From positions 1 to 30,924 of the IMG/VR virus record IMGVR_UViG_3300038856_000046: a stretch of 30,924 nucleotides of DNA. One strand, written 5' to 3'. Every line of letters begins with the position of its first letter. Within the stretch, counting starts at the first letter, position 1. This document shows, one piece after another, positions 18,472 through 30,642 of this stretch. Both the position numbers and the translations under genes were made by a program. The notes below the pieces were generated by a model that worked only from the letters and a program-made list of their open reading frames with translations, was not told the origin of the DNA and ran no database searches. The DNA is from a virus.

Positions 18472-18653
18472 TTCCTACATCCTTTCTCTAGAGAACAAGA
18501 ATCATAAAGGTTTTTGTATCTAAGTAACCCTAATAATCCGAAATCATCTAGAATTTTCTGTTCATCTTTTGAAAGTGTTTTTCTAAGATTATTGTGCCTT
18601 CTATCTTGTAGTCGCTTCCAAATAAACCAAGGCAACCAACCAGGAATTTTCAT
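18468..18653 (-). CDS. Small unknown protein, 61 aa
   Basis: It starts in an ATGA overlap with the polymerase stop. The N-terminus is Trp/Pro-rich (KIPGWLPWFIWKRLQDRR), then a helix-prone basic and acidic part. It has two cysteines near the end (DSCSLEKGCRK). No family is recognised. The Trp-rich, amphipathic start could touch membrane or protein partners. Confidence 0.6.
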   Translation of the reverse strand: MKIPGWLPWFIWKRLQDRRHNNLRKTLSKDEQKILDDFGLLGLLRYKNLYDSCSLEKGCRK

Positions 18654-19840
18654 TTTTTACCCCATTCCTTATAATCTACAGCAAATTTAACTCCCATTTC
18701 AGAAGATTCGGGAACAGCTTCTAAAGTTTGCTTAATAGATTCTAACGTTGATTCTGTGCAATGTTCTGCGGGCAATTCAACTAACACAGAGTCATGAACT
18801 GTCAGAACTAGAGGATAATTAATTGATCTGCGCAATCTCAACATACTTCTTTTTACGATTTCAAATGCTCCTCCTTGAACGTAGGAGTTGAAAGCTTTTC
18901 TGTGATCAAAAGTTAGATGTCGACGACGACCCGTCCAGTATTCAATAAAACCATCTTGCATAGCTATGTGTTTAGCTTGATCTATTGATTTTTTAATATT
19001 GGGATAAGCTCTAAAAAAGTCTCTCTTCATTTCTGTTGCGGATTCTATATCTAATTTAAAGATTAGAGCAATTTTAGCAATACCAGCACCATATAAAGTC
19101 ATATAGAAAAATAACTTAACTGAATCTCTATCCCATCCAAGGCGATCTGCCATTACTTGAAAAACATCAATACCATAAGAGAAAGCATCTAATAAGTCTT
19201 GCTCTACCGCTACAGCCGCGGATAATCTAGTTTCAAGTTGTTTATAGTCAAACTCAATAAGTCGCGTGGAAGAAAGGTCGGGCCAAGGTTTCTCTAGCAG
19301 AAGATGAAGGTCTGTATTTCGAGGAATAAATGCTTTCTTTAAATCTCCATTCCATTCTTTCTCAGACTCTCTTGGAATTTGCTGAAGATTAGGTAATTCG
19401 CAAGAACAGCGACCTGTGCGTGTACCATGGGGTTTATAATTAGGATGTATAATACCCTTTTTATCTGCTAAATCTAAATAAGCTTTATAGTTAGATGAAT
19501 AGGTTTTTTGCCATCCTCTATAACGGGCAACTTTTTGAGCTACATCACTGCCATCAGCTTCAAGCAGTTCTTGATATTCTTCAAGTGCATGTTTATCAAA
19601 AGAAGGATTACCTTTCTCTGTTCGCTTTAGAACAGGATATCCCATTTCTCCTAATAAGAACTCTCCAAGTTGTTTTGTACTACCAGGGTTCCAACCTAAC
19701 TCTGTTTGAATTTGACTACAGATTTGTCGTCCTTTAGCTAACTTAGGTCTACAAAATTCTGCATCTCTCTTAACTCCATTGTGCTTAAGTTCTTTAAGCA
19801 GCCTAATATAGTCTGACTCGATTTCCCACAAGGTAGGCAT
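18650..19840 (-). CDS. polA: Family A DNA polymerase, polymerase domain only
   Basis: This replicative polymerase copies phage DNA. Its 396 aa cover thumb, palm and fingers: a thumb-side NPGSTKQLGEFLLGEMG (51-67), RTGRCSCELPNLQQIP (141-156), motif A FDYKQLETR (197-205), motif B R238...K242...Y246...YG (250-251), GRRRHLTF (304-311) and motif C TVHDS (347-351). Motif C has Ser where HDE is standard; the catalytic Asp350 is kept. The position matching E. coli Phe762 is Tyr246. There is no 3'-5' exonuclease domain; a separate exonuclease lies about 4.4 kb upstream in the operon. ATG follows AGGTGATTAA. It resembles the family in other phages that split or shorten PolA. Confidence 0.93.
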   Translation of the reverse strand: MPTLWEIESDYIRLLKELKHNGVKRDAEFCRPKLAKGRQICSQIQTELGWNPGSTKQLGEFLLGEMGYPVLKRTEKGNPSFDKHALEEYQELLEADGSDVAQKVARYRGWQKTYSSNYKAYLDLADKKGIIHPNYKPHGTRTGRCSCELPNLQQIPRESEKEWNGDLKKAFIPRNTDLHLLLEKPWPDLSSTRLIEFDYKQLETRLSAAVAVEQDLLDAFSYGIDVFQVMADRLGWDRDSVKLFFYMTLYGAGIAKIALIFKLDIESATEMKRDFFRAYPNIKKSIDQAKHIAMQDGFIEYWTGRRRHLTFDHRKAFNSYVQGGAFEIVKRSMLRLRRSINYPLVLTVHDSVLVELPAEHCTESTLESIKQTLEAVPESSEMGVKFAVDYKEWGKK

Positions 19841-22242: not shown

Positions 22243-22448
22243 AAGAACTTCCCATCAAACTTTAGAGTGCGATAAGTTTGAATCATGCCAAACTTCTTTT
22301 CCTTAGTAGGTTCTGATGTAGTTGATTCAATAAATTCAGCAGCTATGTCTAAAATATCTTTGTAGTTACTTGACTTTGGAGTAACAGAACCTAATCTACT
22401 GTAGATAGTTAAGGTCTTGTCTCCCTCGATTGCAATGATGTAATCCAT
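22218..22448 (-). CDS. Unknown protein, 76 aa
   Basis: It starts in a TAATG overlap with the lysin gene. The sequence MDYIIAIEGDKTLTIYSRLG is followed by a helical stretch (SNYKDILDIAAEFIESTTSE) and a strand-rich end. No family is recognised. It is translationally coupled to the lysin candidate by the overlap. Confidence 0.6.
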   Translation of the reverse strand: MDYIIAIEGDKTLTIYSRLGSVTPKSSNYKDILDIAAEFIESTTSEPTKEKKFGMIQTYRTLKFDGKFLWEELSSL

Positions 22449-23419
22449 TACTCAGCTCTTTCAAACCTAACTGTAATAGTATCGGGAGCATCTTGTCCAG
22501 GTTCTCCTTGGAATTCTTCCTTGTTAGTCATTAAATATTGCTTTAGAGATTCGATAATTTCTTCTGTGTCTGCGGAAGGGAATTTATCTCTATTACTCTC
22601 AAACCAAGTAGTGATCTCTTTCTTTACTTGAGTTATAGTAATCTTCCCCTTGTTAGCTAATTTTTCATCCATATCTTCTGCGTGCCAACCTGTGATCTCT
22701 TTTAGATCAGGATTTTGATAGCCGAAGACTGTTCTAGAAGCTTTTACTGCTCTGGTAACTCCCTCACCCCAAATACCATCATAGCGCCAATCTTCAGGAT
22801 CTTCTTCAGGATTGATGGTATCAAAACCTAATTTGACTAATCTTCTCTGTAGGTATCTAACACGTTGACCTCTGTCGCCTTCTTTAAGACCAATAATACC
22901 CATGTCCTCTTCTTCACCTACCCATTCCTCATAAGAGACTCCATTAACAACAGTCATGAAGTCTGCAAGTAACTTACGATTTTGTGTAAAGGCGCGGAAG
23001 ATACTATAGTGCTTATGCCATAAATGGCTAAGATCAGAAGTTACTTTAAACCAAGCATCTGTTAGACTATTGTGACGTAATCCTACAACTGTCTTACCAT
23101 CTAGAGTCCCGAAGAACTCTCTCAAGATGTTGCAACGAGGATCACGAGGATCTAGACAAGAATCCATAACTCTCTTAGTGACAATTTTCATTTGCTCATC
23201 ACTAAGAGTTAAGTCAAATCCTGCACAAAGTTCTCCTGAACCTTGCTTATCTAGTAGTAAAATAACAGAATAATTTGTTGGAGGATTACCGTTTCTATCT
23301 TCATGATAGCCTGTTTTAGGATTAAAGAAACCTCCTAAACGTTTTCCTGGAACTGTGCATTCTAACCACAGTTCTTCCCACATTTCATCTGAGATGCGCT
23401 CTGGAATAGGATTGGTCAT
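22448..23419 (-). CDS. Lysin candidate with peptidoglycan-binding domain
   Basis: The 323-aa protein has, from about residue 175 to 240, a PG_binding_1-type domain: LKEGDRGQRVRYLQRRLVKL, then DGIWGEGVTRAVKASRTVFG. The N-terminal part has TVVGLRHNSLTDAWFKVTSD followed by LSHLWHKHYSIFRAFT, a motif I have seen in peptidoglycan-related proteins of actinobacteria and their phages. No classical amidase or muramidase catalytic set is evident. No signal peptide is seen, so release would need the nearby holin. The C-terminus is acidic. It could be an endolysin with a novel catalytic N-domain, or a wall-binding protein. Confidence 0.7.
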   Translation of the reverse strand: MTNPIPERISDEMWEELWLECTVPGKRLGGFFNPKTGYHEDRNGNPPTNYSVILLLDKQGSGELCAGFDLTLSDEQMKIVTKRVMDSCLDPRDPRCNILREFFGTLDGKTVVGLRHNSLTDAWFKVTSDLSHLWHKHYSIFRAFTQNRKLLADFMTVVNGVSYEEWVGEEEDMGIIGLKEGDRGQRVRYLQRRLVKLGFDTINPEEDPEDWRYDGIWGEGVTRAVKASRTVFGYQNPDLKEITGWHAEDMDEKLANKGKITITQVKKEITTWFESNRDKFPSADTEEIIESLKQYLMTNKEEFQGEPGQDAPDTITVRFERAE

Positions 23420-29041: not shown

Positions 29042-29596
29042 CTACTTTTTCTGCGCTAAACTAAATCCAGATCCATTAGGTTGGGTACAAGTTTGAAGCA
29101 CTAGGTCATAATTAAATAGTAACTCCGGAGGTTTTGCTCCTCTGTCCTCTACCCAATGATGACCTGTAATAACATAACTCCCGCTACACGGGCCAGATTC
29201 GATAACTACTGTAACTCTTTCAGCTATATTATCTAACCAATGCCAACCATCTACATCATGTCCAGCAATAACACAAGTCTTATCATGGTAGATAAACCAG
29301 GTAACTAACTTACCATCATCAAGCACACTCTGGTCTAAAAAGGCTGTTGTAGGCCATAATGAAATTGTAGTCGGAGGTTTAGGTTCAGGTTTAGATTCAG
29401 GTTTAGGTTTAGAAAGCTCAGGAGGCTCAGGAGCAGGAGATATTTCAGGTGGAATAGCATAGGATTTTACTTCTCTAGGAATAGGCAGAATAGGCTCTAT
29501 TTCGGCAGGCGGTGTAGTGGGTGTAGCGGTAGGTTCAATTTGTTCTGCAGAACAGCCCACTACAGCTATAAGAGCTAATAGAAGTAGTTTTTTCAT
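29042..29596 (-). CDS. Sortase-like lipoprotein
   Basis: I start at ATG 29596 (AAGGA about nine bases upstream), giving 184 aa; a longer frame from 29638 lacks a signal. Residues 1-15 are a lipoprotein signal (MKKLLLLALIAVVGC, lipobox Cys15), so the protein is exported and lipid-anchored. A Pro/Glu/Lys linker follows (about 22-78). The domain at about 97-184 looks like a class D/E/F sortase: VIAGH (His113), then W..L..I, then LVLQTC (Cys170). The usual Arg about eight residues after the Cys is missing (QPNGSGFSLAQKK). Function may be wall attachment or, by analogy to phage lipoproteins, superinfection exclusion. The Arg loss could mean a pseudoenzyme. Confidence 0.72.
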   Translation of the reverse strand: MKKLLLLALIAVVGCSAEQIEPTATPTTPPAEIEPILPIPREVKSYAIPPEISPAPEPPELSKPKPESKPEPKPPTTISLWPTTAFLDQSVLDDGKLVTWFIYHDKTCVIAGHDVDGWHWLDNIAERVTVVIESGPCSGSYVITGHHWVEDRGAKPPELLFNYDLVLQTCTQPNGSGFSLAQKK

Positions 29597-29597
29597 T

Positions 29598-30482
29598 TTA
29601 TTTATCCTTAATTTGGATATGTTGCTCTGTTTGACCAAAATTTAGACTGCCTCTGGTGTGTTGAGGAATAAAGAACCTACCACTATATTTTCCAAATAGT
29701 AACCCTTTACCATTGACACCATACTCTGCAAAGTGACCTCTAACTGTGTGTAGAGGCTTACCTGTACCTTCGGGGCGAAAGCGGGAAGTACCTCGCTGAT
29801 AACTAAGACCCACAGGAAAAACGGATATATGAGAGACTCTTAATCCTGTACGTGCTATACGACGGCGTTCTGCTCTTGGTCGCTTAGGTTCTACTAATTT
29901 GACATTTCGACAATTCATAAAATTAATAGTTTGTAAAAGAGTTAGTTCAATAAATTCTGTTGCTTCTTTAGGAAATTCTATAAAATCTGCCCAATGTAAA
30001 TCTGCTGGTCTGCCATCTTCATAAATGGCCCAATTCATTTTTCGCAAAGGACCATAAACTTTATTAGAAGGTCTAGGACGAGCCCATACAGTAGTGTTGG
30101 TAATCCATTTTACGTTATTCCAGTCAATTTTATTTTGACTTTTCCATTTCCAATCTTTAAGCTTTTGATAGTCTTTAACAACAGTATCTAATTCTTTTGC
30201 CTCCACAGTGAACATGCTAGCAAGAATCAGATTATTGTAAGAGTTTTTATAGCCAATAATTACATTTTCCCAAGGTGGAGTTAAGATATGCTCATCATAT
30301 AAATCAAAAGCTCGATCCGCATTCAGAATACGATTATAGACAGCTGTAGCGTCCACTATCGTATTTCTACCCAATTCAGTTTCCTTTATAGCTGCCATAA
30401 GCAGTGTATCATCTTTTACAGTACGTACTATTCTAGAAGCTAAGATATCCGCTACAGCCTCAGCTATCTGATCCGCAGTCAT
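29598..30482 (-). CDS. Conserved-type phage protein with RGHF...HTRG tail, 294 aa
   Basis: Start ATG 30482 has GGGGAG six bases upstream; an earlier GTG has no site. The N-terminus is helical (MTADQIAEAVADILASRIVR), containing a repeated-word copy at 30449. The C-terminal part reads TVRGHFAEYG, GLLFGKYSGRFFIPQHTRGS and ends QHIQIKDK. The tail recalls a conserved C-terminus common in unknown proteins of Gram-positive phages; I do not know its biochemical role. A basic middle (RPRAERRRIARTG) could bind nucleic acid. It is followed after one base by the lipoprotein gene. Confidence 0.65.
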   Translation of the reverse strand: MTADQIAEAVADILASRIVRTVKDDTLLMAAIKETELGRNTIVDATAVYNRILNADRAFDLYDEHILTPPWENVIIGYKNSYNNLILASMFTVEAKELDTVVKDYQKLKDWKWKSQNKIDWNNVKWITNTTVWARPRPSNKVYGPLRKMNWAIYEDGRPADLHWADFIEFPKEATEFIELTLLQTINFMNCRNVKLVEPKRPRAERRRIARTGLRVSHISVFPVGLSYQRGTSRFRPEGTGKPLHTVRGHFAEYGVNGKGLLFGKYSGRFFIPQHTRGSLNFGQTEQHIQIKDK

Positions 30483-30642
30483 AGTAATTCTCCCCACCTT
30501 GATGAATTATCCAAATACTCTGTATAAAATTGTACCATAAAGCAAGTGTTGTAATTGCCCAAAGCTGTGTAATTATATTAACTTGTTGATTAAAATCAGC
30601 AGTTACATACCAAGCTAGTGAGATAAGAATAAACTCAAGCAT
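30460..30642 (-). CDS. Small hydrophobic protein, 60 aa
   Basis: ATG 30642 lies in the end of the upstream gene. Residues about 2-16 (LEFILISLAWYVTAD) and 22-48 (ITQLWAITTLALWYNFIQSI) form two membrane segments. The tail is polar (HQGGENYYDCGSDS). It overlaps the next gene by 23 bases. No family is recognised. Two membrane segments next to early genes could mean an exclusion or antiholin-like role, but this is speculative. Confidence 0.55.
   Translation of the reverse strand: MLEFILISLAWYVTADFNQQVNIITQLWAITTLALWYNFIQSIWIIHQGGENYYDCGSDS

Follow-up and report, generated by a model that had tools for sequence, protein, structure and literature searches.

Exported, sortase-like phage proteins annotated as peptidases are already known, and the described systems nearest to the protein analysed here are of three kinds. 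The PHROG 17228 "peptidase" family of Streptomyces phages (Samy WNA15407.1, TP1604 gp43) has the same domain, is exported, keeps the His and the Cys and, like our protein, has no Arg at the sortase site. Sortases proper (PF04203, classes A-F, e.g. SrtE1) resemble it in fold, in the order of elements, in the His after beta-4 and in the Thr-Cys ending beta-7. Ltp, the superinfection-exclusion lipoprotein of Streptococcus phage TP-J34, resembles it in layout only, being likewise encoded by a phage and displayed on the outside of a Gram-positive host's membrane; Ltp is not known to have a sortase fold.

The reference position for the catalytic Arg of sortases comes from SrtE1 of Streptomyces coelicolor, in which beta-8 has Arg329 as its second residue (PMC5148588). 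For S. pyogenes SrtA, the Thr preceding the Cys has been proposed as oxyanion residue, the Arg makes contact with the P3/P4 carbonyls and the R216A mutant lacks activity; an S. aureus SrtA evolved to carry Ser in place of the Arg remains efficient, on another motif (PMC9520033). It is a matter of open debate whether this Arg has a part in the chemistry or acts only in substrate choice (PMC9520033).

We analysed a 30.9-kb IMG/VR virus record, the whole of which we call the window, with a G+C content of about 38%. Its terminase and capsid show about 34-41% identity to those of Arthrobacter, Microbacterium and Cellulosimicrobium phages and of a Manatee Spring podovirus, so that the host is probably an actinobacterium. 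The gene under study (29042..29596, minus strand, as are all its features given below) encodes a 184-aa lipoprotein with a C-terminal sortase-fold domain. We consider this ORF a credible gene, with an ATG at 29596, a Shine-Dalgarno-like AAGGAT read directly from the sequence at 29604..29609 (7-base gap to the ATG) and close spacing to the preceding ORF (29598..30497, minus strand, 299 aa, PHROG 20769, function unknown), whose stop lies 1 base before the ATG. Two genes upstream, 30460-30642 (minus strand) encodes a 60-aa hydrophobic, probably membrane protein. The leftward strand carries the lipoprotein gene together with a PD-(D/E)XK nuclease, AAA ATPases and a family A DNA polymerase, and this position among replication genes is the one basis on which early expression of the lipoprotein would be expected. 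The polymerase (18650-19840, minus strand) is only 396 aa long and consists of little more than its polymerase domain. Also on the leftward strand, away from the structural genes, 22448-23419 encodes a 323-aa protein with an endolysin PHROG match and a weak PG_binding_1 match (E 2.9e-4, below the cut-off). An exonuclease was considered as a neighbour common to the window and phage TP1604, for which Pfam gave no support.

The protein starts with a lipoprotein signal peptide (MKKLLLLALIAVVG, aa 1-14, 29555..29596) and, judged by eye, a basic n-region, a hydrophobic core and a lipobox with its Cys are all present (MKKLLLLALIAVVGC). From this signal sequence lipidation is predicted at Cys15 (VVG-Cys, 29552..29554), so that the membrane anchoring proposed in the original prediction is supported by the lipobox, at the level of sequence only. 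A Pro/Glu/Lys-rich linker, rich above all in Pro (aa 16-76, 29369..29551), follows and may be a spacer reaching into the cell wall, and the remainder (aa 77-184, 29045..29368) forms the sortase-fold domain. The lipobox, the Pro-rich linker, His113 in VIAGH and Cys170 in LVLQTC were all found where the original prediction had numbered them, as was the lack of an Arg after the Cys, the following residues being TQPNGSGFSLAQKK. What sets the window protein apart from PHROG 17228 proteins is its lipobox, a Lys in place of the conserved Arg of FSLxxR and an identity to them of only 29-39% over the stretches compared. Cys108 and Cys137 are its own cysteines; it has neither the two N-terminal cysteines common to the Streptomyces-phage members nor the different pair of the chromosomal members (L003, L014 and L045 compared). 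These differing pairs suggest disulfides swapped between groups.

PHROG 17228 matched aa 56-182 with an E-value of 7.5e-15, and a tblastn search matched 20 Streptomyces-phage records at 35-39% identity over the domain, with E-values down to 4e-12. A profile built without the window protein scored it at 77 bits (E 3e-24), and because these three results agree we do not attribute the homology to chance. A profile of the EHDYCGG group alone scored it at 29 bits. We fetched 26 IMG/VR loci as relatives. The Samy record annotates that phage's own copy as a putative exported peptidase and relates it to PDB 4D70_B, which we take to be a class D sortase. Chromosomes, drawn mainly from the actinobacterial phylum and supplemented by a single limited scan of genome contigs, yielded two groups: one that we call the freshwater group, a label guessed from one named MAG, with a copy in 11 of the 166 genomes of one actinobacterial order, and the more distant EHDYCGG group, which includes chromosomal lipoproteins and one LysM protein. 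The latter (L080 in genome G009, reverse strand) ends in an Arg-less sortase-like domain, a fusion which suggests that the domain works at the cell wall. L080 was the only match kept from a single-protein search with the chromosomal relative L047, which otherwise gave mostly chance matches to other proteins, and the single match (L001) from a search with the window protein alone was rejected as low-complexity. Searches with freshwater-group patterns and with the EHDYCGG type found no closer viral relative. In the tree, the window protein sits on a very long branch beside one chromosomal row; this placement is weak and may be false.

The sortase-like domain of the original prediction is supported by both structure and profile searches. 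AlphaFold2, run with 21 sequences, modelled the window protein with a pLDDT of 82.5 and a pTM of 0.78, and the 26 best PDB matches of this model in Foldseek were all sortases (probability up to 1.00, TM-scores of 0.5-0.6), with no E-value below 0.001 and no other fold near in probability. The modelled fold thus appears similar to that of sortases, not close to it. A second model, of the chromosomal relative L045 (pLDDT 87.8), was again led by sortases with weaker scores. The family profile retrieved canonical sortases (GHR...TC...R) from actinobacterial genomes with E-values of 1e-6 to 1e-3, and hhalign against 17 canonical sortases gave a pairwise E-value of 2.5e-5 and a probability of 75%. 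None of these lines is strong alone; they agree, and the fold is supported by them together. As for the eight-stranded sortase barrel on which the original prediction had staked its case in advance, the fold is borne out by the sortase matches and the strand count is not, the model having about 7 strands; its topology is consistent with a His and a Cys that face each other. Pfam gave no match for the window protein, which does not reach the gathering score for PF04203, and the best relative had an E-value of 0.0066. Chains of alpha-hemolysin, matched by the profile with an E-value of 0.0075, were set aside, as the fold search points to sortases only. Compared with sortases, the window protein has neither a Pfam match nor, where beta-8 starts, a catalytic Arg; its N-terminal part is shortened, its turn between beta-7 and beta-8 is very tight, and it carries a lipid anchor instead of a transmembrane helix.

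To assess conservation, we aligned 50 domains from phages, freshwater-group chromosomes and the EHDYCGG chromosomal group; many rows are near-copies, so that the counts overstate independence and the real comparison is between three groups and the long-branched window row. Cys170, at the nucleophile position ending beta-7 (29087..29089), is present in 50/50 domains, as are Asp93 and Gln168, and His113, at the catalytic-His position ending beta-4 (29258..29260), in 49/50. The exception is phage YDN12 (L008 1683-2288, L027), in which Arg replaces the otherwise invariant His (ILAARN) and the Cys is retained, possibly a loss of activity in one phage. Thr169 (29090..29092), directly before the Cys and the counterpart of the proposed oxyanion residue of S. 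pyogenes SrtA (PMC9520033), is Thr or Ser in 49/50. His146 (29159..29161) is shared by 39/39 members of the clade of phage and freshwater-group proteins, window protein included, and not beyond that clade. In the models, beta-7 ends just past the Cys, the turn is very short and beta-8 begins at Gly175, so that, by comparison of their secondary structure with R329 of SrtE1, the site of the sortase catalytic Arg corresponds to Gly175-Ser176-Gly177 (29066..29074). This site reads G-S-G in the window protein, mostly G-T-G in the 38 phage and freshwater-group relatives and mostly Gln, Asn or Thr in the EHDYCGG group, of which at least 3 members (L048, L112, L113) have an Arg nearby. The missing Arg therefore proved largely a family trait among the 50 related domains; judged from the alignment, its loss is general within the phage clade and not found in every relative. 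A different Arg, aligned with Lys183 of the window protein (29048..29050), is present in 38/38 of the phage and freshwater-group relatives; by the secondary structure of the models it lies at the distal end of beta-8, away from the site of the sortase catalytic Arg.

Because Cys, His and Thr are conserved, the alignment argues against a dead enzyme, and the pattern is that expected of an enzyme with a changed substrate choice. The reading we favour, to which we give about an even chance, is that of a Cys-His thiol enzyme at the outward side of the membrane, where during infection it would work on the host envelope, its substrate not being an LPXTG sorting signal. The protein would be anchored by a lipid on Cys15 and, through the Pro-rich spacer of about 60 residues, its domain would reach the wall zone; the reactive pair would be Cys170 and His113, with Thr169 helping to hold the oxyanion. 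Since the Arg that positions LPXT-type sorting signals is absent, the substrate would probably be a different peptide, and candidates are a stem peptide of the wall, a precursor of the wall and a surface protein of the host. A search of the 30.9-kb window for a C-terminally anchored protein of the LPXTG type found none. Made alongside the replication genes, the enzyme could alter the host surface during infection, for instance so that a second phage is blocked. Counting against this reading are the loss of activity in R216A, the His-to-Arg change in YDN12, the modest TM-scores (0.5-0.6) and the absence of any structural match with an E-value below 0.001.

The main rival to a thiol enzyme, possible though rather unlikely in our estimate, is a non-catalytic binder: a membrane-anchored lipoprotein would have retained the sortase fold as a scaffold for binding parts of incoming phages or wall components, giving superinfection exclusion as with Ltp. 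It draws on the missing Arg, on the lost His of YDN12 and on precedent, since phage lipoproteins of Gram-positive hosts with a lipid anchor and a small outer domain exclude phages (PMC3952083) and an Ltp-like gp41 has been implicated in Cutibacterium acnes phages (PMC11480721). However, binding does not need a Cys, a His and a Thr/Ser before the Cys that are nearly invariant over 50 domains, which also weakens the original suggestion that sorting signals are bound without catalysis, and PADLOC gave no defence match.

The thiol-enzyme reading must also be weighed against two alternatives to which we assign only a small probability. For the protein to be a true transpeptidase of sortase type, with host sorting signals as its substrates, Lys183 (Arg in the relatives) would have to replace the catalytic Arg. 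Sortases are found over the cut-off in 50 of 60 sampled actinobacterial genomes; hhalign aligns the Lys183 region with the sortase Arg, and the 12-13 residues from the Cys to residue 183 fall inside the sortase range. However, both models put this residue some seven positions beyond the one facing the Cys, where beta-8 ends, whereas the sortase Arg sits at the start of that strand in SrtE1, and the EHDYCGG group does not conserve the Arg of the other relatives. We think it similarly improbable that the gene is a passenger (moron) acquired from a host chromosome, serving the bacterium in its envelope and hardly affecting the phage cycle. The chromosomal copies in 11 of 166 genomes, the chromosomal lipoproteins and LysM protein among the EHDYCGG relatives and the weakly placed branching of the window protein beside a chromosomal group would all fit such an origin, but the gene is retained in several phage lineages whose genomes differ greatly in size, each time with an N-terminal export signal (in the window protein, the lipobox), which suggests use by the phage.

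In the open-access literature we found no description of an Arg-less or inactive natural sortase or of a phage-encoded sortase, and no earlier description of an absent Arg with Cys, His and Thr retained across phages and chromosomes, which is not proof of novelty. Tentatively, and with more doubt than for the thiol enzyme itself, we propose that these proteins form a natural clade of Arg-less, non-LPXTG thiol enzymes of sortase fold in actinophages and on actinobacterial chromosomes, the phage form of which remodels the host surface. A family keeping Cys, His and Thr without the Arg makes the debate on that residue testable with natural proteins, and if such a clade is real, nature would show that the Arg sets substrate choice and that the chemistry does not require it. 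Exported phage proteins of sortase fold suggest, in turn, that actinophages modify the envelope of their hosts during infection.
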